Assembly (NCBI GenBank): GCA_000697665.1 | Contig: KL197722.1 | Location: 148,844 to 212,843, forward strand | Source: Jaapia argillacea MUCL 33604 | Lineage: Eukaryota; Basidiomycota; Agaricomycetes; Jaapiales; Jaapiaceae | Length of the DNA: 64,000 nt | Reading direction: 5' to 3' | Shown here: one piece after another, positions 42,771-64,000 of the stretch | How positions within the stretch are numbered: the first letter of the stretch is position 1 | Layout of the letters: the number at the start of each line of letters is the position of its first letter | Made by a program: the position numbers and the translations under genes | The notes under the pieces: model-generated | What the model was told of the DNA's origin: nothing | Database searches by the model: none | The model's input: only the letters and a program-made list of their open reading frames with translations

Positions 42771-45008
42771 CTACACATAGCTCACTTCACCAAAACGAAC
42801 CCTCCTAGGAGGAGATTCCAGGGGTGGGTAATAAGGAGGGCCGGGCGGATCACCAGTGGATCCAAGGTTGAAAGGGGCGTACCGGCTCGAAGAATTTGTG
42901 GAAGTGATGACGGGGGGTGTAGTACGAGGTACCCTACGGGATGTACCGACACGTATTGGGTCGAAAGAGTCGTTCTGCAAGGAAGGGCTTGGGGAAGTAG
43001 CGACTTGGGATCTAGTTGAACTTCTCCGGCCAGAGTCGCCCTGGAATGAAGGGTTTGTAGGAATATCGACGCAGGTTGTAGTTGACCAACTGGACATAGA
43101 GTCAAAAACGTCGTTCTCAACTGAAAGGTCTGTGGAAATGATGACTCGGTCCGACGCATACATCCGCCGCGACGACGTGGTTGGATGTATCCTACCGGAT
43201 GTAGACTCGAAAGTGTCGTTCCGGGATGAAGGGTTTGCGGAAGTTGTGACGGGGTCGACCCGAGAACGGGTTGTTGGAGGAGGTTGCTGGGGGAGGTCGT
43301 AGGGAATGTAGTCGTACATGTGGGGAGTCAAAGAGTGGCCCTGGAACGAGGAGCCCTCAGTGAGTCGGGTTGTACTCAGCGATCCCCAGGGTGGGTAGTA
43401 AGGGTCTCCGGCGGGGGTCAAATGGTGGTTCCTGAATAGAGGCGGACCATCCGGTCCTAAATCCTTCACCAAACAACAAACCTCATTCATCCCAGGTCTC
43501 CCCTTCGGCATAATAACCCAACATTTCTCAAGTTCAGCCCATAACATATCTGTTATGTACCGACCCGAGTAAGGATCTTTGGGGGGACGTTTGGGTGGGC
43601 AGGGGTATTTGAGGAGGTCTAGTTCGGAGCGGTCTTGGAAGGGGATTTGGGATGTGAATACCTGGTGGGACGTTAGTGAGGGTGCGAGGGGTTTCATTCA
43701 GTGGGGGGGAGGACGGACCTCGAGACAGGTAAGACCGAAAGAGTAGACGTCTGTTGCTGTTGTTGGCTTTTTGGCAGGTTCGGGGGTGGAGGTGGAGATG
43801 GAGGAAGAGGAGGAAGAAGAAGAGGAGGAGGCGGGTTGGAGAAGTTCGGGTGCCATCCATCGTAATGAACCTGCATTAGTGCATTGTACCATTTCGGCTG
43901 TTAGGCTTAAACCGAAATCGCTGATTTGGACATGGTGTTTTTGGGAGATTAGGATGTTTGCCTGTTGAATTGTGTTATGTTATGTGGGTGTCGAGCGGGA
44001 GGGAGGAAGGGGGGGCTTACGCCTTTGATGTCGCCGTGGACGAGGGCTTCGTTATGTAGGTATTCTAATCCGCGAGCTACTTGGTCCAGCTGCGGACGAC
44101 CTTGTTATAAGGAGGTTCGGCATTGGGAGTTGGGTGGGGGACGTACGAGTATACATGTCTGAATGGTGGATAGGCAGTTCCGCTGGACGTATTCTGTTAT
44201 GTTGCCATTTGACATCCATGGGGAAACGAAGACGAAAGGACATGGATCTTCGTCCATTTGGTGGATCCCGAGGAGAGGGAGGATGTTGGGGTGTTTTAGG
44301 GATTGCCAGATCGCAGCTTCGTGATATAATTTCTGGAGTACGCTCCCATCCCATAAGCTCCTGATTGCATAATGTATTGGATTGGAGTGGGACTTGCCTT
44401 GATCGTACCGTCACTTTCGAAATCGGATGGGGAGAAAGATATACGGATCCTCTTTAACGCTACTGGTTTTCCACGGAGGTATCCCATGTAGATGGATGAG
44501 GAACCGCCGGAACCTATTGGGTCTTTTCCTTTTCTTTGGATGGAATCGATTGCAATGGATGATGGGAGTTTGTGATGGGATATTGCAAGATCGTAGAGGA
44601 TGTGATGGGATCTGGGATGGTGCCAGTTGATTGTTGACTCTTGGGGTGCGAATAAACTCCTGTCACAGGCCTGCAACATTACAGTTAGAAAGGGTGCGAG
44701 AGGAGATATTGGAGGGACGGACATGGTGGAGGATATCGACGAGAAGGCGTAGATATTCATGGGATAGCTGTTCTCGCAGTTTTTCGATTGGTTCTTCTAT
44801 GATTCGTTTGACGTGAATCACAAATCGGGCTTCTTGTTGCTTGAGCTCTTCGAGGTCGGAGGTATCGGGTTGTAGTTGCGCGAAGATCGTCGAGGCGCTA
44901 TAAGTATATATGAGGTTAACTTTGGTAAGCCGGTGAGACGCTGGAGCGGTGCCGTATATCAACGTACAACTGAAGTTCTTTGGCGATTATCTGTCCTGAG
45001 CTGGGCAT
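42771..45008 (-). CDS. TKL-like protein kinase with N-terminal helical domain and Ser-rich tail
   Basis: Seven exons (45008-44968, 44897-44723, 44670-44398, 44332-44147, 44089-44021, 43961-43719, 43661-42771) encode 625 residues. The helical domain (residues 1-72, signature STIFAQLQ ... LLVDILHH) is shared with the copies at 48-51 kb. The kinase has GSGGSSSIYMG (about 125), ALKRIR (Lys about 145), HGDIKG (Asp about 245), SDFGL (about 263) and RWMAPELL; all catalytic residues are present. A 16-residue Ser run lies just after APELL. The C-terminal 230 residues are Ser/Thr/Pro-rich with a loose repeat around N-P-S-x-x-N-D-x-F and end in RRVRFGEV. Intron 3 is a GC-AG intron (donor AAG-GCAAGT, 44397). 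It is the only intact gene of this array. Confidence 0.88.
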
Positions 45009-46450: not shown

Positions 46451-47890
46451 GAGATCATTGTTTGAACGGAAGAGGGCGAAACACAGCCACGTCCGAGAAT
46501 AGATGCCGTACGTGTCGACTTGGCAGATTTTCCAACACATGCAACGGCCATCGCTACGTCTTGCTCACTCGTAAAACCGAAAACCATACCCTCCTGGTTA
46601 ACTTGCCCGCCCTTCGCTCGGCTACGACCACTCGGGCTACGACTGAGTAGAATCATTCGTTGAGATGCCCCCATCTTGGTGTCGTCGATGTAGTGTTGTT
46701 CTTGAGAATGGCGGAGTAAGGCCCGAGTTCCTGCCGAACGTGAAAGTTCCAAATGGTATCGTATATGCAACTTTGTTGTACCTACGAAATACAAACCTCG
46801 TCCGATGTTACATAGGAGTGAGTTGAAGGTCCGGTGAGATGGGGTTCGGTCACCAAGCCCACCGCCTCCGTACAATGGACGGGGTCGCTCAACCCGTCCC
46901 GGACCACATATCGCCAAAACGAACTCGTCTAGTAGGAGAGCCCAAGGGTAGGTAATAAGGCGAGCCGGGTGGACAACACGGTGATTCAAAGTCGTTGCCG
47001 GCTCGAGGAGATTGTGGAAGTAGTGTCGAGCGATGTAGTAGGAGGTAACCAAGGGGGGCAGTGACACTTATAGGGTCTAAGATCTAAAGAGTGTTTCCTG
47101 ACTGAAGGGTTTGTGGGATGGTATGGGGTTGTATTGTCGCGTATGGAGGCGAAAGACTGGTTCCAGGCTGAGGAGTTTGTGGGAGAGGTGACGGGTTCGA
47201 GTTGCATCGCCCGATATTGTGTTGAAGCAGGAGGATCCGATGGTGGTCGATAGAATGAGCCTGTAGTGGTGTCTATGGGGTACCTAGGGGGCGAAAAAGT
47301 GGTTCTGAACTGAAGGGTTTGGCGAACTTCCAGCCACGATAGTGTAGAGTGCGTCATAATGGCTTGCACCAGAAGGGCGTCTAGCACTAGGACCGACACC
47401 AATACTCCCCAAACCCAATCCGCCGTTAAGTCCTTCGTCAAACACCAAACCTCGTTCATGCTCAGCCTTCGGCACCACATCCCAATACCTACGCAACTCT
47501 TTCTACAGCGTATCCGTTACGGATCGACCTGAATACGGATCTTTGAGACGTTTGGGTTGGGAGGGGTACTTGAGGTCTGTCCCGGAGCGGTCAGGGAAGG
47601 GGATTCGGGATATAAATTGATACCTGTGGGGGCGTGTTGGTGAGGTGATAGGGGGGAAGAGGGTTGGAGAAGTTCGGGGACTGTCCATTGAGTGAATCTG
47701 CGTTTGTTGATGGCACCGTTTCAGCTGTTGGACTTCAAGTTAGACTGAAATGACCGATCGCGATTTGGGATGTGGCCTTTTCGGTGGATTACGATGTTTG
47801 CCCGGTTGGAGATGTTATGTGGGTGTCAAAAGGAGGGTGCAGGGGGATCCACACGCCTTTGACGTCGCCATGGACGAGGCCGGGGTAGAT
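46451..47890 (-). pseudogene. Wrecked copy of the TKL-like kinase, unit III
   Basis: 46455-46600 resembles the start of unit II (45290-45430), 46660-47340 resembles the C-terminal region of the intact kinase, and 47380-47880 resembles its C-lobe (IPFPDRSGTDLKYPSQPKR, DPYSGR). The N-lobe and helical domain are absent, and frames are broken in several places. Confidence 0.7.
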
Positions 47891-48479
47891 ACTTAGCTCT
47901 AGAAGGGCATAAGTGATATGGATCGTAGAAGTAACAAACTAGTACTTACTAGTAGTGGAGAATTCCTATGTTGGGCGAATGCCTTGTGATACTGATGGAC
48001 GTCTGATACTTAGCGAAGGCCGCAGGCCAGCCCCTCTTAATGTACCCGACCAATACGCCAAGCCACAACGTCGATGTCACCATCAAGTCAACATACTCGC
48101 AGAATTGTACCACTGAAGCAACAAGTTCACCCGCGCAATCAGTAGATTCTCCAAACCTACACAAAAAGGTACGACTTGTTGCCTTTCGTATCCCAATTCT
48201 GAGTCTGAGTGTGAAGGATTCAAACTTAGTTTCGTGTCACGCGTCCGGAGATTCCCTTGGCTTACAAACTGTCTCGTAAACACGCTGAGATCGCCGTGCT
48301 GCGCAGTCCTTGCGACTCCCTTGCAGCTCAACCCCTCCACTCCCTTTTCCTATTCTACTTAGGCGCATATCGCTGGCGCTGATGGCGAACACATCGAGGG
48401 ACATCATCGCTTCCCAGCTTCGGCGGTTTGTCCATTCATTGGTATGACTGATCTCGACCCCGCTTACCTCGAGTTGCAG
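47891..48479. other. Spacer between opposed kinase arrays
   Basis: Minus-strand kinase copies end here and the plus-strand pair begins. A candidate first exon of the plus-strand gene runs from an ATG at 48382 to a GT at 48442, but its phase does not fit the next conserved exon, so the true start is unresolved. Confidence 0.5.
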
Positions 48480-50026
48480 AGCCTCCGCGATTTTCACCCA
48501 TCTGCAAATGGATTCGGCAGCGGACGACGTGTTGCGGGAGCAACAACTGAACCCGGGCCTTGTAGCTCACGTTGAAAGCATCGTACAAGAAGACATTGAA
48601 CATTTTCGAGCTCTACAATCTACTGGCAATACGTGGCTGCCTACCAACGACGTTGATTGTCTCGTGGACATTCTCCTTTATGTGCGAGTTGCCATATTAT
48701 ATTTTGGATCTCTTTCTCACTCAGCCATTACAGACTCTCAAGATTGATGCTTTCACTGCTCGGCACGATGCCAATCGACTCCGTAACAGGATTACGCGCA
48801 TCCTTGTTATTCTTTCGGGAATTTTGGAGAGGCTTCCTCCATCATCAGTGGTCGACGGCATTGAAAAAATCGACAAGTACCCCACGATCTGTAGCGGAGG
48901 TTTTTCTGATATCTACAAGGGGTTCCTCTGTGGGAACGCCGTTGCATTGAAAAGAATCCGTGTGTTCATATCCCTGAATGCTGATCCTGCTGACCTTAAG
49001 GCAAGAATTTCACTGAAACATGTCGATGACGAGCTTACATATCATGGGTCAAATTCTAGAAACTTTATCGCGAAACAATCGTTTGGCAATCTCTCAAGCA
49101 TCGACATGTTCTTCCGTTACTGGGTGTCTACAGAATGGCTCATGATCGATGCCCCTTTACACTCGTGGCGCCATGGATGTGGAATGGAGATATAACTGAG
49201 TATGTTAAGGCACAGGGACTCTCCACTCTCGACGTCTGTAAATTGGTATGTTCCTCGCACTCTCAGTTGGATTGCATCTTGTGTCATTGATCCTTCAGTT
49301 GCACGAAACTGCTCTCGGGCTGGAGTATATCCATAGCCTGGGCATTGTTCATGGTGACATCAAAGGGGTAAGTGGTGAATCCCTCTGTCTCTCTGTGATT
49401 TTAATGCCCTATTGCAGGGAAACATACTCATCAGCAATGAAGGGAGTGCCCAGATTTCTGATTTTGGCCTGACCTACCCTTGTGAAATGACTCAATCCAC
49501 TAGTGCTGGCTCAATTTGATGGATGGCTCCTGAATTGTTTGGGAGACATGCATCTGGAGTTCCAGGTGTTGTCCAGGTGAATTGTAATGGTGTTGATGCT
49601 GACACATCTGCTTCTGCCCAAGTGTCCTTGGGTGACCCTGCCTCCACACTCAACTCTTATGAATCAGAATGGAATGAGGTTAAGCGGACAACTGGAAGTG
49701 ATGTTTATGCCTTTGGTATGACATGCTACGAGGTGAACACATCATCTTTAGGTGATATCAGAACCAGCTTTTGATTGAATTTACCACAGGTCTTTACTGG
49801 CAACATACCTTTTCACAATGTCAAGCATGATCCAGCTGTGTATATGAAGATCATATCCCATCATAAGCCAATCCGCCCTTGTACTTCCCCACACATATCT
49901 AACAGAGTTATGTCAGATGAGCTCTGGAGAATGTTAAATACCTGCTGGGATGACAATGACAAGGTGCGGCCATCAATGTCTGAGGTCTGCCTTGCAATGG
50001 GTCTTTTCCATGACCTTCAGCTGTGT
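48480..50026 (+). pseudogene. TKL-like kinase unit with CGA-to-TGA stop (first half of tandem kinase)
   Basis: Exons 48480-48681 (helical domain, SAIFTHLQ ... LVDILLY), 48743-49000, 49060-49245, 49299-49367, 49418-49732 and 49790-50026 follow the exon lengths of the intact kinase (for example 186 and 69). CSGGFSDIYKG, ALKRIR, HGDIKG and SDFGL are all present. At the place of RWMAPE the codon before Trp is TGA (49517-49519), where the intact paralogue has CGA. The intron at 49001 is again GC-AG (AAG-GCAAGA). The last exon ends phase 0 at 50026 with a GT donor and splices in frame to the helical domain of the next unit at 50069, so both units look like one gene. Confidence 0.7.
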
Positions 50027-50068
50027 GTAGCCATGAGTTGGTTCTGCCCTAATTTCCACTCACCCCAG

Positions 50069-51730
50069 ATCACTAGAGCCTCCACAATTTTCATGCAGTT
50101 GCAAACAGATTCATTGGCAGATGTCCTATCTCTCAAATCTAAACTTGCATCTAGCCTCGGTGGTATCATAGAACATCCAATAGCCGAAATACAAAGGCAC
50201 CTATCTACTAAGAATACAGACAACCTCATTCAGATTCTCCATTATGTATGATATCCCGTCTTCTCATTGCTGACTCAGTGATTCAGCTATCATAGGCACT
50301 TGACACAGATTTATTTGCCACCCAGTCTATCAATACATGGCACCACAGTCGATCTCAGACTATTATCACTTTTCTAGAGGCTTTATCAAGCATACCAGCC
50401 TTGTTGACTGATTCAATTGGCATCTTTCCCCAGTATATCAACCAAGGACTTCTTTACAGAAAGGTGGTGGCATTGAAAATAATGCAAATATTTTCTGGCA
50501 TTGATGACTCTACAGCAAGTTGTACTCTGAAGGTAAGATCTGGATGTAAAACTGTATATGTGGGTTGACCCTCTTTGGGATGACCTCTAGAATGTGTACC
50601 ACAACACTTCTATTTGGCAGTCTCTCCAGGAGCTGTATATCCTGCAACTGTTGGACATCTATCAAATGTCTGGTGATCCATGTCCTTATGTTCTGGTGTC
50701 ACCTTGGATGTCAAATAGATATGTAACCAAGTATGTTCAAAGGAGCCAATTATCAAGTGTTGACATATACAAATTGGTGTGTAGTTTTGGAACTTAGCTG
50801 GTTTTCTTCTTATATCATCACTCTTCTAGCTCTACAAAACTGCTCTTGGCCTTCAGTATCTCCACAGCCAGGGAGGTGTTCATGACAATGTCAAAGGAGT
50901 CAGTATCATAATAGACTTTTCCTCCTCAACATGACAATAACATGATAATCTAGGCAAATATTGTCATCAATGATGAAGGGTGTGTTCAGATTTTTGACAT
51001 CAGCCTCCTCCTTTCCTTAGAAGTGTCCAGCCTCAGTGCTGCCCCTGGTTTGCTTCAGTGGATGGCACCTGAGTTACTTAACACCACATCTAAATATATA
51101 GTCCCAATCACTGCAAGTGATGTTTACTCTTTTGGCCTGACATATTGGGAGGTAAGCTTATCTCATTCTAGAAGATGTGAGAACCAAGTGCTCACTATAT
51201 TGACTTAGGCATTTATGGGAAAGATCTCCTTCCATGAGGTGGCACTTTCTAAGAAGGTGATACAAGCCATCTCATACCATTGCAGACCTAAGCATCCTTC
51301 TAGAGGCCAATATCCCAGAGTTATACCTGATATCTTTTTGAAATTTTTGGTCAGGTGCTGGGACCACAACCCAGATGCTCAACCTTCAATGCACAGCATT
51401 ACATGTGACCTCTCTGTTCAAATTACTGCTCAGCAGATTAGCATCCCCACTGTGATCACAATCCTAGAAATTTTTTCTGCTCAGCTATACAGGCTTCACA
51501 CCAAAGTCAATAGCCTTTACAAGTTTATCAAGTGGGCCAAGTTCATGGCTGACAAAGTTGACCTTATATATATCTCTGATCTGTTATGGATGAAAGAACC
51601 AGGTCTTCTATCATATGAATTCTTGATTGTATCTACTGCAGGCCCTCAATTGGAGCAGCCTACATACCTTCATATTGAACAAGATGCCACAACCTTGTTT
51701 ACCTTATATCAATCATACTCAAGGTTGTAG
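50069..51730 (+). pseudogene. Kinase-like unit with lost catalytic motifs (second half of tandem kinase)
   Basis: Exons 50069-50245, 50296-50532, 50591-50776, 50830-50898, 50954-51151 and 51209-51730 keep one open frame. The helical domain reads RASTIFMQLQTDSLADVL ... IQILHYV. The glycine loop is deleted (GLLYRKVVALKI), the HGD catalytic loop is HDN (VHDNVKG), DFG is DIS, and RWMAPE is QWMAPE. The ATP lysine remains. Despite the lost catalysis every junction is in frame to a stop at 51730, so it may be a true pseudokinase domain that later lost its start through the damage in the first unit. Labelled pseudogene because the transcript would stop earlier. Confidence 0.6.
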
Positions 51731-52660
51731 TGCAAGAACAAGGTGACTTTTACAGAAGCATTCAGATGGGGCTCTCTATTGAAAATAGGGCCTTGTCTAT
51801 TACATTCTATTACTTCTGTTGCCTTTATTTATAACAATATCCCTCTCATCAAAGTTGTTGTTCTCTTGGGTATCATCAGTAAAGTTGTAGATCTACAATA
51901 TGTGGACTGTCAATTGCTGGTGGTTTGTGAGGATCATTTGGAAGAATATTGTTAAGCTTGAGACAAATGATGAGATGAGATTTGTATCAGTTCTGGAATG
52001 GAAATTGGCTTGGTTATGGAAACAGGTGGCTGAAGAGAAAAATATGAAAAAGTGGGAAGCAAGAAAGTTTGAGAGAGTTCAGTGGTGTGTTCATTGTGCT
52101 TGCTTGATGAGAACATTTGGGGATGACAAGGATGAGGAAAAATTGGACAGTAGGTTGAATAGGGTCAATGAGGTATTTGGGAAGAAGCTACTCAATAAGT
52201 GCAAGCAATTACCCCAAAAATCCTTCCAGGCCAAGTAGCTGAAGTCAGAGAAGAGAGATCAGAAATCTTCTCAACAGTATAGCAAAGGATAATAGGTGGC
52301 AAGTGGTTCATGCAGTGAACAAAGAATTTGCCAAATTGGGTGTTTAAAGTATCTCCCACCTGATGAAGATCTAATAGAGTGACTGGTTAGAAGTGCACAG
52401 GCAGTGAACTTAATGTTTTGCAAAGAGATAAATCCTCAGATAAGGCTTGTTGGACTTGATTTGAGGAGCTGAGAATGGAGCCAACACAGTTTATATAGAC
52501 TACAGGAAAGAGTATGGCATTGTATGGCTTGTCTGTCAACTAGCCATGGATATGGTAAAGAAGAGCAAGAGCAAGAGAGTACAGAAGTCAAGGGGAGCAG
52601 ACTTGGTGAGGATAAGTCTATGCATATGCACCCAACTTGGTGATAACTTGGTGAGGTTGA
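51731..52660. other. CpG-poor region of unknown content
   Basis: A Lys/Glu-rich plus-strand open frame at 51900-52238 (KKWEARKFERVQW ... KCKQLPQKS) has no recognisable family. The rest is AT-rich and shows no gene. Probably decayed transposon sequence. Confidence 0.4.
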
Positions 52661-55110
52661 GCATAGGCGTGCACATAACTTGGCATGGTTAGAAGGAAAG
52701 AACATCAAAACAGAATATCCTAGTGCAAAACTAGCTCCCAAACAACATGGACTATTTCCTATCAAAGCAATTATAGGATCTGGTGCCTACAAGCTGACAT
52801 TACCAAAGAAGTGGAGAATCCACCCAGTTTTCTACACAGGATTACTTATGCCATACAAAGAAACCGAAAAACACAGAGTCAATTTCCCACAACTGCCACC
52901 AGACTTGATTGAAGGAGAAGAAGAATATGAAGTAGAAGAAGTAGTCAAATCAAAATTCATTGGGAGAAACAAGGAGATCCGATATCTAGTCAAATGGAAG
53001 GGTTATCCTGACTCAGAGAATACCTGGGGAGACATTGGAAACATACAGAATTTGGCAGAATTAGTAGAATTATTCCATCAGAAGAACCTAAAGGCACTAA
53101 AACCAGTGCAAGTTGCATTAACATTACCCAAGGTACCTGAGGAATAATGACATGCTTCTGGATCAATAGAGAAGTAGAACAAACAACAAGAGAGAACTAT
53201 TTCTGCATACTGGAAGTATTGTCAAAACATCCAAATCCAGGAGATATAAAAGCACATCTGGCAAGGCTGCAACAGTCTATTCCACAGTGAATACTCTAGC
53301 AGTACCAGCCTCCACTCAGCCCACCAGCACCAATTTGATTACCACCTACCTCATCATGTTGAACATTGTCTGAGCCATCCAGATCTATAACATCATCACT
53401 CCCTCTGCCCACTATAGGAATGACAAAGGCAACATCATTGATCAGGCTGATGTCATCAAGTGAGAATGCACTCAAGTCACCAATATCCTGCAAAAGGCAT
53501 GATACATTCAAGCCTTACTTTGGACCCTCTGGTACAACCCAAAGCAAATTGAGGCCCTCAGCATCCACATGCACTGCCCCACTGGCATTGACATCCTTGA
53601 GGAAGAGGAGGGCAAACTCCACTACCCTATCCCCATCCTCACGGTTTGCTACACCCCCTCAAAAGACCTCCAAGCCATTGCAGCCATCCTTTCCCCACTC
53701 ACTTGCCTTTGCCTCATCAGCCTCCCATTTGAGGAGGAAAGTCAAATTCATATTAACTCAGACATGGATATTGCATCCAGCACCTCCTATCACCCCAACT
53801 CCCTGACATACTCTCATCACAAGTTGGACTACATACCACTATCCCCTTACTACTGGCACACCCAACTGACGATGCATGGTCAGCACCCACTAACGTCCCA
53901 CCAATATCACCCAGATCACCCACATTTGTATTCCCAAATGCATCACTGATTGATGTGCCCAACCCTCATCTTCCAACCCCTCATCATTCATGTTAGCGGA
54001 TACATATCAGTCAGTTCAAAGCAAAGTATCCAGTCACCCATCACTCCTGTCATTAGTCTCCATACCCAAGTCCACACCACTCACTGATGGGGTCAAGGAT
54101 GGACACAGGAACAAGTTGACAAGTGGAACTGCACCTGTAACAACCAATGGAACAATGATGCTATTGTTGACTCCAAGGACATCTGGCCTAAAACCAACAA
54201 AGAGAAACACTGTCACTCACCATAGTGCTGGGGATGTGGTGTGTGGAGACACACTATCTACAAGTGTAAGAAAACCAACAATCATAAGCATCCACTCTGA
54301 TCCCACTTCACCACCACTCATCACAACTTAGCTGGCACCACTCCACTTCCATCCCTACACTGGATGACCCCTTCTATCCCTTACACCTTTTGACCTGCTG
54401 AGGAAAAATAGCTCTTTGACTTCCTCATAGAACAAGTATCAATGTCAGCAGCCAGGCTTCAGGCAGCTGAGTGGACCCACAGTTATTGGGTTAAATAGGG
54501 AAAACATCTGGCTGGGTCAGATGGTCTCCTGGGCCCTCAACTCCCTGAGTGGTACCCTTCTGAACCTGCCCCTGTCGCCCCTAAACTAGGACATTAGAGA
54601 CAATGTCAGTCATAGAGAGGGGGCAGTGTTGTGAATGCATTCAGACTTGTATATTTTCATTTGTATTGTATGTATTTTACTTCTGTTTAATGGACTTCAT
54701 TCATCTTCGTATCATTTCCATTGTCTATGATACTTAGTATGACTTGATCTTATTGTGTCTTATCTTATCTTGGATTGTTATCTTATCTCAGACCTTGTAC
54801 TATTATTAGCACACCATGACTCAGACTGCACAGCCTCTGTATAGCCTCATCATTGTTCGCTAAACCTTATCTTGTTTGCCATTGTCCAAGTCCATTGTCT
54901 CATTCCTTATTGTCCATAGTCCATTGTCTGAATATCTATTGTTCTGTTAGTATATAAGGATGCCTAGCTACTCTGTATTCAATAGCTTGTCTCCTTGAGC
55001 AATATAGCACTTTAGTTGTATCCTTCAACTGGTTCACTGTCCTCTCCTTTGTCATCCTCTATAGCCTTAACATTGTAGCCTGAGTACTAGTTGCTAAGGC
55101 ACTCCTAACA
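52661..55110 (+). mobile_element. Ty3/gypsy chromovirus fossil, 3' part
   Basis: 52680-53147 carries the C-terminal end of an integrase with a chromodomain (VRYLVKWKGYP-like core, 52920-53085), the hallmark of chromoviruses. Upstream protease, reverse transcriptase and RNase H are not seen. 53150-54610 is unassigned spacer, followed by a polypurine stretch (AGAGAGGGGGCAG) and a 3' LTR at 54627-55110. The copy is broken and strongly CpG-depleted, so it is old. Confidence 0.75.
54627..55110 (+). repeat. LTR (family A), 484 bp
   Basis: Begins TGTTGTGAATG directly after a polypurine tract and ends CTCCTAACA, the short inverted ends expected of an LTR. It has a TATA-like AGTATATAAGG near 54950. 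No second copy lies in the window. Confidence 0.65.
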
Positions 55111-55111
55111 G

Positions 55112-55375
55112 GAGGAATACAATCATAGTGTTTGATGATTCTGTACTGTACCATTGCGATCAATTCAACAGTCATGCATCACAACTGATTTTTTCTAACC
55201 CTTGGAATGATTTAATTTCGATTTTTTTCAGGTTTTCTGAGATTTGTCAGAGAAATAAAAAAAGTCATATGTTTGTCAAATTGATCAAAATGGTACAGTA
55301 TGTGAAAGGATCAGATATCTGTGAGGAGTGTCATATAATAAGAAAAAATGAAAATAGATGTAGCACAGTGTGATT
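55112..55375 (-). mobile_element. Inverted fragment of LTR family B, interrupted by a MITE
   Basis: The two flanks of the MITE (55112-55143 and 55301-55375), read together, are the reverse complement of 59390-59515, the first part of LTR family B. The LTR family A copy abuts it on the left, so elements are nested here. Confidence 0.75.
55144..55300. mobile_element. Mariner-like MITE, about 153 bp plus TA target duplication
   Basis: Terminal inverted repeats start CTGTACCATT and include GATCAATT; 21 of the first 25 bases match between ends. A TA dinucleotide flanks both sides. The same host sequence without the insertion is present (inverted) at 59475-59500, giving an empty site. The interior is AT-rich and codes for nothing. 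It keeps several CpGs and so looks younger than its surroundings. Confidence 0.8.
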
Positions 55376-55379
55376 CATT

Positions 55380-56694
55380 ATAACCTCCAGCTTTTACTCT
55401 GGATTTGTATAAGGTGGACATCATTATTTAACTTTCTCAAACAAGTTCTCCAACTTTGCAAGCTAAATGATTGCTTTCATCTGGGCAAGTATCTGTCTTG
55501 TATTGCTCAGGCTGTTGACCAATTCATAAGACTTGCCAACACTACTGATGAAGTTCCAAACCTCAAAACAAAGCAATACTCCTACTTTTACTTATCTTCT
55601 CAAGAGTAGACTCAGCTGGTGTTCATGCAGGAAGTCTTACAGGTACATTCTTATGCTTGGTTTGGATATCTCTTTAAATGGAACAACTGCTAATATCATT
55701 AACCTTACAGGAACTTGCTGATGCTCACCAAACATTTTTGTCAGCTTCTCATCCCTTGTGGCAAGCAATCCCAGTCCTCAAGCTCCTTCAAGAGACTTGG
55801 GAAAAATTTGCAGTGGGAAGTAAGTTCTCATTGATCAAGTCCTCTATCCAGGCTGGGCTGGAGAATCTCAGCAAGTGGTACTGGAAGATGGACAACTCCA
55901 ATGCCTATTTTATCTGTCTCAGCATGTTTTCTCCTGTGTTACTGCTTTCAACCCCTAACCATTAAATATAGTGTTGAACCCAGTAGTGAAGCCAGCCTAT
56001 TTTGAAGATCAATAGGATGCCAACTAGGTTGAGATTTGCAAAGCCAATGTTGAGTTGAGGGTATGTTGTGTTCACTTATTTTTCTTTGACCCTATGCATC
56101 TGAATATTCTATCCAGTTCCAGAAATATCTTGTAGCTCACAGCAGTGAAAGTGTGGCAAATGCCACTGCTGGTGAGTCATCACTAGTCTCTTATCTTACT
56201 TCCACTCAACAGGGTCTGGTACAGCCATGCCATCAAGTACATCATCAAATGTCAGCAACAAGCACTATGGAAGCTCTTGGATGAGAACAGCTCTGCAAGC
56301 TCACCAAGACACCAATTTGGCCAACTACAATCCAAACCAAGAGCTCAATTCATATCTTGAAGCCCTGCTTGAAGATATGCATGACAGTGAGGTTATCCAA
56401 TGGTGGGGAATAAGTTATTTCTCCCACTTCATTGTATGTGATGTATGCTACCCTGAATTGCTTATACTGTCACTCCATGGCATACCCTGTTCTCTCTCAG
56501 ATGGCTTGAGACTACCTCACATCCCTGGCTTGTCTGTAGCCTCAGAGCAGGCATTTTTAAGTAGTGGTATCACAGGCACAGTCCATGACAACCAACTGCT
56601 TCCTGACATTTTTCGGGTGTTACAGCTCCTGAAGAGTGCATATCACAAACAAGCTCTTGACATTGTCAAGAACTTAGGTCTAGATAATGTATAG
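55380..56694 (+). mobile_element. hAT-family transposase fossil
   Basis: RWTSLFNFLKQVLQL (55410-55460) matches the RW-x-S block of hAT transposases. IPVLKLLQETWEKF with GLENLSKWYWKMDNSNAYF (55760-55915) and the C-terminal dimerisation region (LLEDMHDSEVIQWWG ... VASEQAFLSSG ... VLQLLKSAYHKQAL, 56340-56680) follow in order. The pieces are separated by apparent introns with GT/AG ends and by frame changes. The N-terminal zinc finger and first catalytic part are missing, cut off by the LTR insertions on the left. Terminal inverted repeats were not found. Confidence 0.75.
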
Positions 56695-56828
56695 AGTATT
56701 AATTGGCCCTTTATATGTCTGGTATCAAATACTATGTGAATCTACTTGTGTTGAACCTGTTTGAACCTGTTTGAATATGAACTGAACTCTTCAAACATGT
56801 TCTTCTGGGTCTGATTGGGGTTTTTTAT

Positions 56829-57082
56829 GACACTCAATGAATCATTGCTATGTCATGCAAGTAGAACTGTTACCTGTCTTATTATGATAAGCCATAACAT
56901 ATACTAGAGTGACAAGAGAGAACAATAGAGAGCAAATGAGACTGTAGACAACACAGTGTGTAAGACAATCTGGGGAAACAAGACAGTGTGCCATTGCATA
57001 TGAACAAGAATGGAACTAAACAAGACGAAGCTTCAGCCACAACTTCAGCCACCTTCCTAAACTGGATTCCAATCCTTGCATG
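56829..57082 (-). repeat. LTR-like direct repeat, left copy
   Basis: About 90 percent identical by eye to 62662-62914. Shared landmarks are GTAGAACTGTTACCTGTCTT and GACAATCTGGGGAAAC. Confidence 0.8.
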
Positions 57083-57442
57083 TTCCCCCATCAGAACCAA
57101 ATCCACTGGCCAAGTTGAATGAATCTAAAATGAGAGTAATGAAAGGGGGAGAAATAAGAACATCCTCTGCCAATCTATATGCAGGATAGGTATGTGACCA
57201 TATCATGTTCAGAGAGCCCAATGAGAGAGGACCTCAATAAGAGTCTGTGGAGAAGCTACTACTTTGAGAGGCCAGGACATTGAATCAGAAGAGTAGTTCA
57301 AGTCACTAGAACCTGAATTAGAATTACTATAAGCCTGCATACTTACAGACTCATGATTATGTCTTGATGATGGGTCATATCCCTAAGACCCAGGGATAAA
57401 TGTCCCAGAAGATACAGAGTCAGAATCAGAATCTTCAATTGT

Positions 57443-57610
57443 CTGAAAACTGGAGCTACCAGGCTGAATGCTGGAATTACCAGTCTGGGAGCTAGAACTA
57501 CCAGCATGAAATCTGGAGCTACCAGTCTGAACACTCAAACTACCGGTCTGGAAACTGGAACTACCAGTCTGGAAGCTAGAACTACCAGTACAAAAGCTGG
57601 TCTTACTAGT
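57443..57610. repeat. 21-bp tandem repeat, 8 copies
   Basis: Eight diverged 21-bp units around CTGGAAGCTAGAACTACCAGT lie in the gag-like fossil. On the minus strand they encode a repeated seven-residue T-G-S-S-S-F-Q motif. Confidence 0.9.
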
Positions 57611-59389
57611 CTGTGTTGACCAGAAGAGAGAAGAGATAGTTTTTGGTGGCTGGGGCTTCTCATATACCAGGCTATCCACTGTTGAGACTGAGGAGTCATA
57701 GGAATAAAGAGGTCCTGAATACAGTCCTTCAAACTTCAATGCCTCCTTGTACATCCAATCAAAAGATGTGGAAGCAACAGACATTCCACATTTCTGTAGA
57801 AGGTGTTGAGATATAGGGAGAGGAAGACCTTGGATGAATTGCCCACAGAATGCTTTGTTATCTGGTTGCCTAACCATCAGCTTTGCAGCAAGGAGGAGAT
57901 CATTATAGAAACCTCAACACCAGTTGATGAGTGGAAGCAACAATCACCAAACCTGGTAACCACTAGCTATCCTGGCCTAAACATTAACACCCTTGCAAAG
58001 AAAGTGCTTATATATAGCACAGACGACATCCTGAAACTTCACGTTGTTACCAATGACCAGATGATCATTGACTTCGTGGTCAAACCAGGATAATGCCTGA
58101 CCATTTAGATACTGTCCAAGAATATCAATCTGGGTACTTAAGCTCAAGACAAAGGAGCCCAAAACACCAAGAGGCCTTGATGAAGACAGAGGTCCTGACA
58201 GGGGTAGTTTCTGAACACTGTGAGCACATGACAACACTTCCTTATATTTATTTGTGGTACCAGCCACTTGTATCCTTCGTGGATGAGGGGTGCACTTGGT
58301 GACACAAGCACCCAAGTCAACTGGCATGACATTCTTGCCAGGAAAGGGAATGTCACCTGGAGTATCAGCAAAACCATTTGAAACACCTGCAGCAACCCAC
58401 ACTCAGGTCCTATGTTGTTGAGTATCATCGATTGAACATGAAGAGTGATAATAAGGATGAGACTGAGCATGAGGATCTGTAGTAGTACCACCATTAGCTG
58501 AGGTTGGGCCTCCATCCTCAACATCCATGAGATCCAGATCAAATCAAACACTGTGAAGGTGACATGAACTAGTGCTGCAAGCAGCATTCACAACCTCAGA
58601 GAGATCTCTATTGTTAGGTCAATGATTGTTGAGCAAATTCCAGAAAATCGATGGCAAGCCCTGACTGAACACATTGGAGTTGCATGAGTCACAAAGTGAC
58701 CCACCACGATCAAGGGAAAGCTCAATATGCTTGTTATGATCAACCAGAACACTGCAGACATCAGGTTGTCAATGAGATAAAGTGCCTCCAGCAATGCTGA
58801 AAGCTGAGCATGAACTGTTGGTGCTGACCTGAGCCCCAATAATATTCTAGCCATCCAGTCCTAGATTGTGGGCATCGTGGTAGGAAAGGACTCACCACAA
58901 TTGAGGGACCTCCAGTACATTGGCAGATCCATTCAGTCAACCAGAAGACCTAGTGTTGGTGCTCATCACCAAAGGCTTGATATGAGAATCAGGTAGTGGC
59001 ACAGAATGAAGCAGAGTGATGCCACAATCTGGAAGCTCCTCTTGAGCTGAGTAGGGAGGCCAGTGGGTGCCAGTCATGAAAAGCTTAGTATGTGAATCAT
59101 TGAGTTATGTAATAGGGTTACGATCAGGAAATTCCAACCACACATGGTGAGGAATGATGCCATGACCAAGGGGTCTGGCTTGAGAATGGCTATTGGCACT
59201 GTACATAGGTGCTGTAGTCAGTGTCTCCACCTGAGAACATATAAGAACAGACTCTCGACAGTGGCTGGATGAGGGTAGGGTATCAGATTTTATAGATGAC
59301 TTTGAGGCCCAAAGAGACATCATGTTGATAGTACCAATCACAGGAGACTCAAGAAAATAATCCAGCAATGGCACACAAGGGAGTGATGC

Positions 59390-60033
59390 TGTTAAGAATC
59401 ACACTGTGCTACACCTATTTTCATTTTTCTTGTTATCCAACACTCCTCATGGATATCTGATCCTTCCATATATGGGATCATCAAGCACTATGATCATATT
59501 CCTCCTGAACACAAGGGATGGGTTCACACCCCTTTGATATCCCTTCAATACACCCTCATTCCTGCACATCCAACCTCTAGTGCATTATCCTTCATCTTTG
59601 TCACTCTGACTCCTCATCACCTTGTCACTTCACCTTCCAGTACGACCCAGGCCACAGACTACAGACCCCTATGTCTCTGACTCATAGATCAGACCATTGA
59701 CTGTGGACTACAGACTACAGACCCCTAACTACGGACCCCTATTCCTTTTGACTCACTTTGACTTATGCTTACTACTGTCTTACTATTGTCTTACTCATTG
59801 CTACTACAGACTATGGACTGTGCTTCATCATAGTATATATACTTCCCTGTATTTGCTAGTATTCCCCATCTTGTTCACTTTGTCAATCTAGATTGTTATC
59901 TCTATTTACATCGTCCCAACTTGATCCCTGTCTGATCATCTGTCTGGAAACCTCTGATAGTTTCTCATCCTCTTGTCATTCTACTTCTGGGACTGTAGCC
60001 TAGGTATCATCAGAGAAGTATCCAAGTCTTACA
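59390..60033 (+). repeat. LTR family B, about 644 bp
   Basis: Starts TGTTAAGAATC and ends near AAGTCTTACA, with a TATA-like AGTATATATAC at about 59830. Its first 125 bp recur inverted at 55112-55375. No partner LTR is in the window; it may be solo. The right end is uncertain. Confidence 0.5.
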
Positions 60034-62661
60034 TCATATACTTTGTTGAAGTAACAATCTCAATAGATGCAGTGTTGTCATGTGGAGGTTTTCCTGGATG
60101 CGATGACTGAAAACAAGAGGGGACCTCATCCAGCACCTTCAACAATTCCTTGGAGACTTCCATAGTCCTCAAATATGTAACTCCAGATACCAGATACCAG
60201 AGACTCAGAGTGAAGACTAGGAGCCTGAGATGCACTGCGACATGCCAAAGGCTCAGGTACTGCCAGGGGGTATGATGACTAAGAGCAAGTGACTATGTTC
60301 ATGTTCATGGATTCAACAGTTTTTGTAGCCCTTGTATTTGTGGTGTTAGTTGCCACAGACTTTACATAAGAAGGTCAATGAGATCCAGTATGACAGCCCA
60401 AGCATGTCACTGGGTTTGGTGATGGAGGATACAAAGTAGTTAATGGTGTTGTCCTATTCACAGGACAGGTGTTGTTCACCATTGAGTTGACATGAGAGCC
60501 ACCAAATGATATGACATGATTGTGACTGCTAGCAACCCTCAGTGGTTCAACAGAAACAGAGGATTGAGAGCATGCAGTAGTAGTCTCAGTTTTTGTATTT
60601 GTGGAAATCTCAGAGATGTTTGGAGTTGGAGTTGGAATCAACAGATTGGTGATACATGTGTCATGATCACCACCTTGCTGCAAGGGTTGATAAGCAGTCC
60701 CACTGAGACTGGAGTGAGCCAACAGATTTGGACTTCTTGTCAGTCTGCTATCTATTGCACAGCTGGGGAGTTGATCCTCAGAATGCATTCTATCACAGCC
60801 ATTTACATGGAAGATGGACACCTTTCTGAGTGTTGCAATTGTAGTACTGGCTGACAACAACTCAGTACATGAGTTATGTAACAGTAAGGTATGACCAGAC
60901 TTTGGTATAACTGGAGTTATTGTCAATGATGACAACCCTCTTTTGCAAGGAGGAGGTAGCATCCCTGCTGTCAGAGAAAGAACTCCCATGACTGGTATCC
61001 CACTCAATGCCAATGGGTCTCTGAGCTTGGGAGGTAGATCTGAAGGGAAGCAACCCATTTCAGGTTGTTTCTCCATCTGACTAGCACTTGAAAGTGGTAT
61101 AGGGGATTGAAGGACAGAGTGATTTGTTCTCCATGGGCACCCCACCTCTGTGCCAGTCAAACTGCAAGGGACACAAGCACTGTCATGCACATCTGACATG
61201 GCTGCTTGAGACTCTTGGCTAGGACTGTAAGCACTTACTAGACTCTTGAGTATACCTTCAAGTTCTTTCCAAGAATGTGCCACCTCAGGATCTGTTTGCC
61301 ACACATCATTATCAACATCATCTGGTCCCATCTGAGTCCCAATTCCATAAGCATAGGTGCCATGAGTTGATGATGCCAATTCACAAAGCCTATCCAAATC
61401 AGTGTGAGTTTGGTCATAGTCATGATGATGCCTATGCAGACCTGGAGAAGATGCTGGATAACCAGCAGATGGAGCAGGAACCCCCACAACAGGTGTCCTC
61501 ATTGATGCTGTTGATTTTATGTGGGACAAGCTAAGTGTACACTTGGACAGAGACAATATCCCAGGTGAACCAGGTACACCATGACTGGTAAGGTGAGGGT
61601 CAGCACCCTTTGGATGTTTATGCAACAAGGCAGAAGCCAAGGCAGTACAATAATGGCTTCTAAATCGATCCTGGAGACATCGGGTATCAGCCTCCTGGCA
61701 TGCATCAAGTGCTTCCAACACAACTTAGTAAGACTCTGAGGTGGCAGCAGTGATGTAAGCTTCTGTATCACTGTCACCTCCTGTCATTTAAGGTGCATGA
61801 TCAACAGTGATCAAGTGGTGGTGGCTCAAGGCCAGTCCTTGACTAGAGACTGTTTGATCAACAATAAACGATTTGCATTAATACACACCAGAGTGAAAAC
61901 CACCAAGCTCAACGACAGGAGGCAATAGACAGCTGTAGAAGGTTTCATAAGATGTAGCCCAAAGCCCCACCATCTCCTCATTTGCATATAATCCACTCAC
62001 TTCCTGGTGATGGTGTAGATCTGGAGACCAAGCATGTGAGGAGTAAGATATGATAGGAGGTTGTTGAACCTGAGGTCCATCTTGCCTGGAGTGCATAGGC
62101 ACACAATGCAACATGAGGAGAGTTTAGATTGTTCAGGACCAGGATCCAGTGCATCCACAGATAGTTTCAACCTCCTTGGGGGTTGAGGTTCAACAACAAC
62201 ACTGCACACTTGAGAGGACACACTAGAATCTTGATGTAACACATTGTAATGGGTTGCCACACCCAAAGTCGAAGGTTCTTCCAGATGTGAGATCAGCAAG
62301 CATGTAGAAGGGGGTTGAACAAGTGATGTATTGGTAGTGTTGCCTCAGTTTTGAGCTTGTGGCACTGCAAGTGGAAGATCAGTGTAGTTCAGAGTCAAGA
62401 ATTAAGGGTGACATGACAACACTGAGTGATGCATTGTCTTCCTGAAGTTGGGAGGCTCCTTGAGAAAGGAAGAACGGATGTGACTGGGAGGAACATCAAC
62501 CCCAGCTCGGAACTGAGGGTAGGGGATACTGTGGACTCTGTAAATATCTTCATATGTTGCCATAGAAGGTTTGGCTTTCACTACAAGTTGTATAGACTGT
62601 TTCAAGAGCCTAGGCTGTAGGAGTTCAAAATAAAAAGTTCAAAGTTCAAAAAGGTATAAGA

Positions 62662-62914
62662 CACTCAATGAAACATTCCTAAGTCACACAAGTAGAACTG
62701 TTACCTGTCTTATAAAGATAAACCATAACCTATACTAGAGCAACAAGAGAGAACAATAGAGAGTGAATGAGACCATAGACAACATAGTGTGTAAGACAAT
62801 CTGGGGAAACGCGAGAGTGTGCCATTGCACATGAACAAGAATGGAACCAAACAAGACCAAGCTTCAGCCACAACTTCAGCCACCTTCCTAAACCAGATCC
62901 CAATCCTTACAGGT
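62662..62914 (-). repeat. LTR-like direct repeat, right copy
   Basis: Partner of 56829-57082. Its outer end on the minus strand begins TGTAAGGATTGGG. Confidence 0.8.
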
Positions 62915-63837
62915 TTGGACTAGCACTTGAACAGAACCATAGGTCAGGTTCTGTGTTCAGAGAATAGGTTACTGAACTGCACAGACCTAGACCATCACAT
63001 CACCATCCATCACCTTTGCCAGCACCACCACCACCAACCCAGTTGCTTCCATCTCCATTGCTAAGTTTCTACCACCAACCTCCCTGATAATCTTCCACCA
63101 TGTCCTCAACAAAGTAATGAACCAATTGTAATGGTCTTGGCCACTATCTGTGCCCACTATATATGCTTTGCTAGAATTCTGGAGGATGCCTTCCAACAAG
63201 CCATGACAGGACATAACAGAAGATTTTAATGCTTTGGGAGGAAGTTAGTTGATGCTAATCAATCACAATCTGAGGTATGGATTACAGTTCTGGGAAATGG
63301 CATTGTATGGGAGATTGAGGCTGTTTTGATCCTCATAATGATAAAGGTGATAAGGTTTGGTTTTATCACTGAGAAGACCTGATACTGTAACATTTCAACC
63401 AATCTGGCAGGGGTTACAACACCAGATAGGCCCACCACTAAGCAACCAACTGGTGAGGATATCTTTGATATCAGACAAGGGTCAGGAGCAGCCAGTATAG
63501 TGGTCTGATGCAACCAAAACCAGTGTTAAAATATCCTTAGAAAGGTCTCTCAGATTCAGATGCAAGAAGGCTATTTGGGTCGTAGCAGGGAACCCTCACA
63601 AATGCGCAAAGGGAAACATACAATGAATCTAGCTATAAATAGTGGAATAATACTGAATGTGGGGGATAAAACATTGATCCAAAGTAAGTAAATAGCTGAG
63701 GGACTACAAAAGTTCATGTGAGCTCATTCGTACATTAACCATAAATCCAACACACCCCTGCGAGCGAAGCATGAACAACCAGAAAAATAGAAACCAAAGA
63801 TGTAAAAGCACACCCCTGTAATCTGCACCCCTGCATT
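62915..63837. other. No gene seen
   Basis: CpG-poor sequence with short open frames only. Probably part of the retroelement that enters from the right edge, or its flank. Confidence 0.4.
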
Positions 63838-64000
63838 CACCAAGCCTCATTCTCCAAATCCAAGTCCACATTGACAACAGCAGCCATTTCAGCACCTCCC
63901 TTTGAAGCTTCCCACTTCCTTTTCTCAGGACAATCAGATTTGTAATGTCCCTTTCCATCACAGAAGAAGCACGTAACATCCAAACAATCGCGTGTGTTGA
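63838..64000 (-). mobile_element. Retrotransposon gag with CCHC zinc knuckle, cut by the window edge
   Basis: On the minus strand 63971-63930 encodes C-x2-C-x4-H-x4-C (CFFCDGKGHYKSDC), the retroelement nucleocapsid knuckle, followed by a short acidic tail and a stop near 63838. The element continues beyond 64000, so family (copia or Ty3) and integrity cannot be judged. It retains more CpG than the sequence to its left, suggesting a younger insertion. Confidence 0.7.

Follow-up and report, generated by a model that had tools for sequence, protein, structure and literature searches.

Two kinase-type units follow one another on the plus strand of a 64,000-nucleotide stretch of the Jaapia argillacea genome (the window, which is part of contig C14). 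Are they, or were they ever, a single gene? The original prediction described them as a kinase/pseudokinase tandem gene. This layout is present in the sequence and the second unit carries the marks of coding constraint, but the locus is pseudogene-like as it stands and its supposed 3' end is the relic of another gene. The reading we lean towards, with somewhat more confidence than doubt, is an in-frame fusion of two paralogues in which the second unit would have been a long-coding pseudokinase, the whole now being a pseudogene that erodes from its 3' side.

Results

Two kinase units of one subfamily

In a Pfam profile search both units match PF07714, the first (U1) with E=2.7e-35 and 122.4 bits and the second (U2, including the tail derived from gene D) with E=8.4e-27 and 94.5 bits, the curated cut-off being 23.1. 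Together with six corresponding exons this bears out the tandem arrangement of two kinase-type units on the plus strand. By the PF07714/PF00069 criterion, U1 and U2 belong to the protein kinase superfamily and are TKL-like. The short introns, the chromodomain retroelement and the abundance of TKL-like kinases are in keeping with a basidiomycete genome. The N-terminal 132 aa of U1 gave no Pfam match above cut-off, the sole hit being PF06250 (E=0.18).

Unit 1 had been taken to start at 48480, and an upstream exon with its own ATG had thereby been missed (Table 1). The catalytic motifs ascribed to U1 are all present: VALK, the αC Glu, HGDIKG, DFG, APE and the αI Arg. The intron after its exon 3 is of the GC-AG type (AAG followed by GCAAG, 49000/49001) and is common to gene A (44398/44397) and gene B, U2 having GT at this place; the remaining donors and acceptors of both units are GT-AG and usable. 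An in-frame TGA at 49517-49519 falls in exon 6 within the activation segment, immediately 5' of WMAPE. In gene A the codon at this position is a sense codon containing CpG, and U2 also differs from gene A there.

The catalytic losses described for U2 are confirmed, the Gly-loop being absent and HGD and DFG having become HDN and DIS; further, the αC Glu is replaced by Asn and the αI Arg by Gln. VALK, the Asn of GAN, the DFG Asp, APE and DVYSFG are retained. A kinase domain is classed as a pseudokinase if the VAIK Lys, the catalytic Asp or the DFG Asp is lost, and U2, whose catalytic Asp is Asn, is a predicted pseudokinase in this sense. A recent origin of U2 by duplication of U1 is ruled out, since it shares 37% identity with U1 (135/365 columns) as against 41% with gene A (151/364 columns).

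The closest paralogues are two single-kinase genes on the minus strand, gene A and gene B. Gene B is broken: its exon 3 is one base short, a TAA lies early in exon 7 and Asn stands at the catalytic Asp. Its CpG content drops through the 3' half, as in U1. A degraded third kinase paralogue, resembling the 3' half of A and B, was observed at ~46501-47881 on the minus strand between gene A and U1.

Table 1. Features of the locus and related loci. Positions refer to the window unless a contig (C14, C60, C73) is named.
Feature	Position	Strand	Description
Gene A	42771-45008	-	CpG-normal single-kinase paralogue, own exon 1, ~200-aa tail; reference for U1 and U2
U1 exon 1	48382-48425	+	44 nt, phase 2, own ATG, begins MANTSRDIIASQLR; counterpart in A and B 41 nt, same phase
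U1 exons 2-3	48480-48681, 48734-49000	+	N-terminal domain and kinase N-lobe
U1 exons 4-6	49060-49245, 49299-49367, 49418-49732	+	Kinase core; carries the in-frame TGA
U1 exon 7	49790-50022	+	End of kinase C-lobe, then apparent 3' end of U2 first exon in frame
Junction intron	50023-50076	+	54 bp, phase 2, by homology; alternative of the original prediction 50027-50068, 42 bp
U2	50077-50245, 50296-50532, 50591-50776, 50830-50898, 50954-51151, 51209-~51430	+	Dead kinase unit, without stop
Gene-D relic	51457-52189	+	80% identical (597/744 columns) to C14:249176-249919 minus
CpG-depleted tract	49300-64000		Repeated sequence, chromodomain ORF inside
Gene B (L029)	C14:~229.5-231.5 kb	-	Single-kinase paralogue, broken
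Locus T (L014/L068)	C14:~108.7-111.2 kb	+	Kinase-pseudokinase, CpG-normal
Locus C73 (L025)	C73:~15.9-18.2 kb	+	Kinase-kinase; second domain partial
Locus C60 (L026)	C60:~112.1-114.5 kb	-	Pseudokinase-kinase; second domain partial

An open frame across the junction

The units are joined in frame, as had been proposed, the frame 49775-50251 being open straight over the junction. The splice put forward for this join, 50026/50069, is possible and in frame, but 50022/50077 is the better choice: an intron of 42 bp falls outside the 50-59 bp spanned by the remaining 11 introns of the two units, and 50022/50077 is the homologous join because in phase and position it agrees with the first intron of both A and B. 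The junction, A and B have an intron 1 consensus in common, with CTTCAG(C/T)T followed by GT at the donor and TAG followed by (A/C)GCCTC at the acceptor. The last exon of U1 ends in CTTCAGCT followed by GT, matching the end and donor of gene B exon 1, ACTTCAGCT followed by GTACGT, and the junction acceptor (TAG followed by AGCCTC) likewise matches those in U1, A and B. The protein encoded by this last exon ends in MGLFHDLQL. The frame is kept with either join and also if the intron is retained.

From these homologies the first exon of U2 appears to be merged with the end of the U1 kinase, which looks like an in-frame fusion without an intergenic region. That the open junction frame also preserves the phase of U2 exon 1, intron 1 and exon 2 is, by comparison with the paralogues, a point in favour of fusion; that a chance join would be in frame in about one in three cases counts against it. 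A DNA search of the genome (43.7 Mb, 95 contigs) with the junction returned the query itself as its single match. The AlphaFold model of the junction region has a mean pLDDT of 38.6, a low confidence that is too poor for judging the helicity of the N-terminal domains.

Loss of CpG and the 3' end of the locus

The CpG observed/expected ratio falls steeply within U1. In 500-bp bins it is 1.04 at 48500-48999, then 0.58 and 0.16, and thereafter at most 0.20 in each bin to 60 kb; in 2-kb bins no value before 50,000 is below 0.63, and none from 50,000 to the end of the window exceeds 0.14. Along U1 exons 1-7 the values are 1.21, 1.19, 0.99, 1.01, 0.46, 0.12 and 0.17 (bounds of exon 1 one base off), and those of the U2 exons range from 0 to 0.33. 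TpG/CpA is in excess where the ratio is low. Sequence repeated in the genome starts at ~52,250, and an ORF at 52647-53147 encodes a chromodomain/Tf2-1-like SH3, integrase-like product. Four ORFs of the tract and the ORF with the last exon of gene A gave nothing in a Pfam scan at E 0.01. We also observed in the tract an ORF on the minus strand (57383-57913) with a 21-bp tandem repeat at 57441-57629, again with no Pfam match at E 0.01.

Of three basidiomycetes, one is reported to show pronounced CpG-type mutation of transposons and the other two a weak form of it, and Masc2-like methyltransferases are reported for the same three species (PMC4352252). Near-vanished CpG is as expected from long-standing cytosine methylation and deamination; the methylation itself we infer. 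The locus shows the one-sided erosion of a gene at the border of a CpG-depleted tract.

Unit 2 had been thought to end at the TAG at 51728-51730. This stop belongs to the relic of an unrelated gene D, whose first part makes up the last ~90 codons formerly assigned to unit 2, and U2 proper ends near 51430. What was said of the open frame of U2 over six exons accordingly holds in part: 369 codons are free of stops and the five inner introns have usable sites, but the last ~90 codons and the TAG are foreign. Nor is the TGA in U1 the only clear lesion, as the relic adds its TAG, a 9-bp deletion and a frameshifting 2-bp deletion, and the tract is nearly without CpG. Gene D (~269 aa, with a copy ~48 kb from the relic) has no Pfam match above cut-off. 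On the branch of the relic, changes are found at 22/42 CpG sites and at 56/471 other sites. Members of the gene-D family (~269 aa) were also seen at L042, L044 and C4:~950-982 kb, and several more places match the N-terminal part.

Coding history of U2

At non-CpG sites, the U2-specific changes at codon positions 1, 2 and 3 amount to 47/160, 50/231 and 62/119 (0.294, 0.216, 0.521), as compared with 50/171, 37/220 and 59/118 (0.292, 0.168, 0.500) for U1 and 55/184, 41/225 and 79/138 (0.299, 0.182, 0.572) for gene A. The pattern of U2 is close to those of U1 and A, which indicates that U2 was coding for most of its history. Lineage-specific residues among 360 columns number 68 in U2, 51 in U1 and 36 in A, and the maximum likelihood branch of U2 measures 1.21, those of A and U1 0.45-0.48. 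As judged from these comparisons, U2 is faster evolving, yet constrained; its long branch would also follow from relaxed constraint.

The 369 codons were simulated under three mutational loads, with 1500 runs per load. U2 stayed free of stops in 17.7% of runs at a load of 4%, in 4.8% at 8% and in 0.5% at 11.9%, the last being the non-CpG load on the branch of the gene-D relic (56/471 sites).

CpG decay was considered as a general cause of the motif losses of U2 and rejected. Over 166 columns, conserved residues are lost at 21/50 with CpG context and at 47/116 without (Fisher p=0.87); there is no CpG enrichment, so CpG decay does not account for most of the divergence of U2. The changes Asp to Asn, DFG Gly to Ser, αC Glu to Asn and αI Arg to Gln fall at CpG in A or U1; the deletion of the Gly-loop, HG to HD and DFG Phe to Ile are non-CpG changes.

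Discussion

Origin and fate of the locus

According to the reading we favour, two paralogous kinase genes of the TKL type and of one subfamily would have become joined. The sequence from the end of the U1 kinase to the first exon of U2 would have been lost, by a mode that can be presumed only from its outcome, and the last exon of U1 would since have run into U2. U2 would then have diverged as coding sequence and lost catalytic residues, giving a joined product in which a pseudokinase came after the kinase and, if JAKs and plant tandem kinases are a guide, would regulate the active domain or act as its scaffold. Later, the decay of the transposon-bearing tract would have reached into U1, whose stop sits in the decayed part. 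Today the locus would most likely be a pseudogene, able at best to yield a shortened U1 that lacks most of the kinase C-lobe.

The two units may instead never have formed one protein, being two neighbouring single-kinase genes that decayed independently and were joined by a deletion after their function had been lost, with the open frame a matter of luck. The closest paralogues, A and B, are indeed separate single-kinase genes, gene B is broken too with a fall of CpG through its 3' half, and the minus strand holds a further degraded paralogue at ~46501-47881. U2 also continues in frame into the unrelated gene-D relic, which shows that read-through junctions arise at this locus. Against such a history stand the 369 stop-free codons of U2, a rare outcome in the simulations (0.5% at the load of the relic, 4.8% at 8%), and the excess of U2 at the second codon position, which amounts to no more than some 3 to 5 points. 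We regard it as rather unlikely, though worth serious attention. That the locus is a working kinase-pseudokinase gene which yields the tandem protein, its TGA being confined to this strain, bypassed by readthrough or an error in the sequence, seems improbable. CpG is at a normal level in the 5' half of U1, the splice sites are usable and three other tandem kinase loci occur in the genome; but the stop of U1 lies within the CpG-depleted part, the supposed 3' end is gene-D debris with its own stop and frameshift, and gene B decays similarly. Least credible, with very little in its favour beyond the CpG-normal and open exons 1-4, would be a U1 that persists in truncated form, its N-terminal domain and N-lobe being followed by the C-lobe as far as the activation segment, possibly as an interfering fragment with mere debris downstream: a kinase that stops short of APE would not be expected to fold.

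Tandem kinase loci elsewhere in the genome

It had been held that relatives in which the units are always separate genes with their own starts would speak against a joined gene. The closest paralogues A and B are of this kind, but at three loci elsewhere in this genome two kinase domains lie in tandem. Among the best matches of kinase searches plus one extra stretch, taken with short flanks and thus covering a part of the kinome, 41 of the 48 merged stretches (172 kb) carry 46 catalytic-loop clusters, and at least four pairs of catalytic loops lie on the same strand less than 2 kb apart (U1-U2, T, C60 and C73). As modelled by eye from the sequence, locus T carries VALKR, HGDIRG and MDFG, then CRAMR, HGDLTP and FNFG, with 1.2 kb between its catalytic loops, and its two kinases are probably one gene. 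C73 has IAIK, HGD and DFG, then VAIK, HSD and DFG, to which point its second domain was read; C60 has HGD with ASFA replacing DFG, then AMKK, HGD, DFG and APE as far as DVYAFG. Locus T resembles U1-U2 in having a kinase and then a degenerate kinase on one strand, and differs in that no N-terminal domain was seen by eye ahead of its second kinase.

A tree built from 10 kinase domains places A, U1 and U2 in a single clade excluding T1 and T2 (support 95/97), only 1 of the 7 inner branches being well supported and the placement of the long branches T2, C60k1, C73k2 and C60k2 being unsure. An ancestral fusion common to U1-U2 and locus T is not supported, as A, U1 and U2 group apart and the rest of the tree is weak. 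The U1-U2 fusion probably arose independently.

JAKs, as generally described, hold a pseudokinase and a kinase in one chain, in the order FERM-SH2-pseudokinase-kinase. U1-U2 is like them in having pseudokinase and kinase side by side; its order, kinase then pseudokinase, is opposite and the pair falls outside the JAK family. Plant tandem kinases (TKPs) such as wheat WTK1 (Yr15) are reported with the kinase first and the pseudokinase second, as here, and to have originated repeatedly, through duplication or fusion; they differ in deriving from plant kinase families, and WTK1 has been cloned and tested with mutants (PMC6170490). U1-U2 is by comparison a fungal pair of the TKL type with an N-terminal domain before each unit, and it is broken: a TKP-type layout has both kinase domains in one uninterrupted frame, which the TGA in U1 interrupts. 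In Agaricomycetes, the FslK/TKL kinases of Laccaria bicolor are reported to belong to large families that are lineage-specific in basidiomycetes (PMC2838846, PMC3937382). Their likeness to U1 and U2 rests on this family expansion, and the words "tandem" and "pseudokinase" do not occur in the main text of either article. Among the titles and abstracts listed in a collection with few subscription papers, none concerned tandem kinases in fungi.

It is tempting, if still speculative, to suppose that separate fusions have given rise to tandem TKL kinases in this fungus again and again and in all orders, and that U1-U2 would be one of them, its N-terminal domain repeated, now silenced and dying. As part of that supposition, tandem TKL kinases might tentatively be set beside plant TKPs and animal JAKs as their counterpart in fungi. 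If the tandem layout does recur in the kinase expansion, the pairing of kinase and pseudokinase would be convergent in plants, animals and fungi, and the fungal cases would be amenable to study in small genomes. For the idea of tandem kinases, loci T, C73 and C60 are better material than U1-U2.
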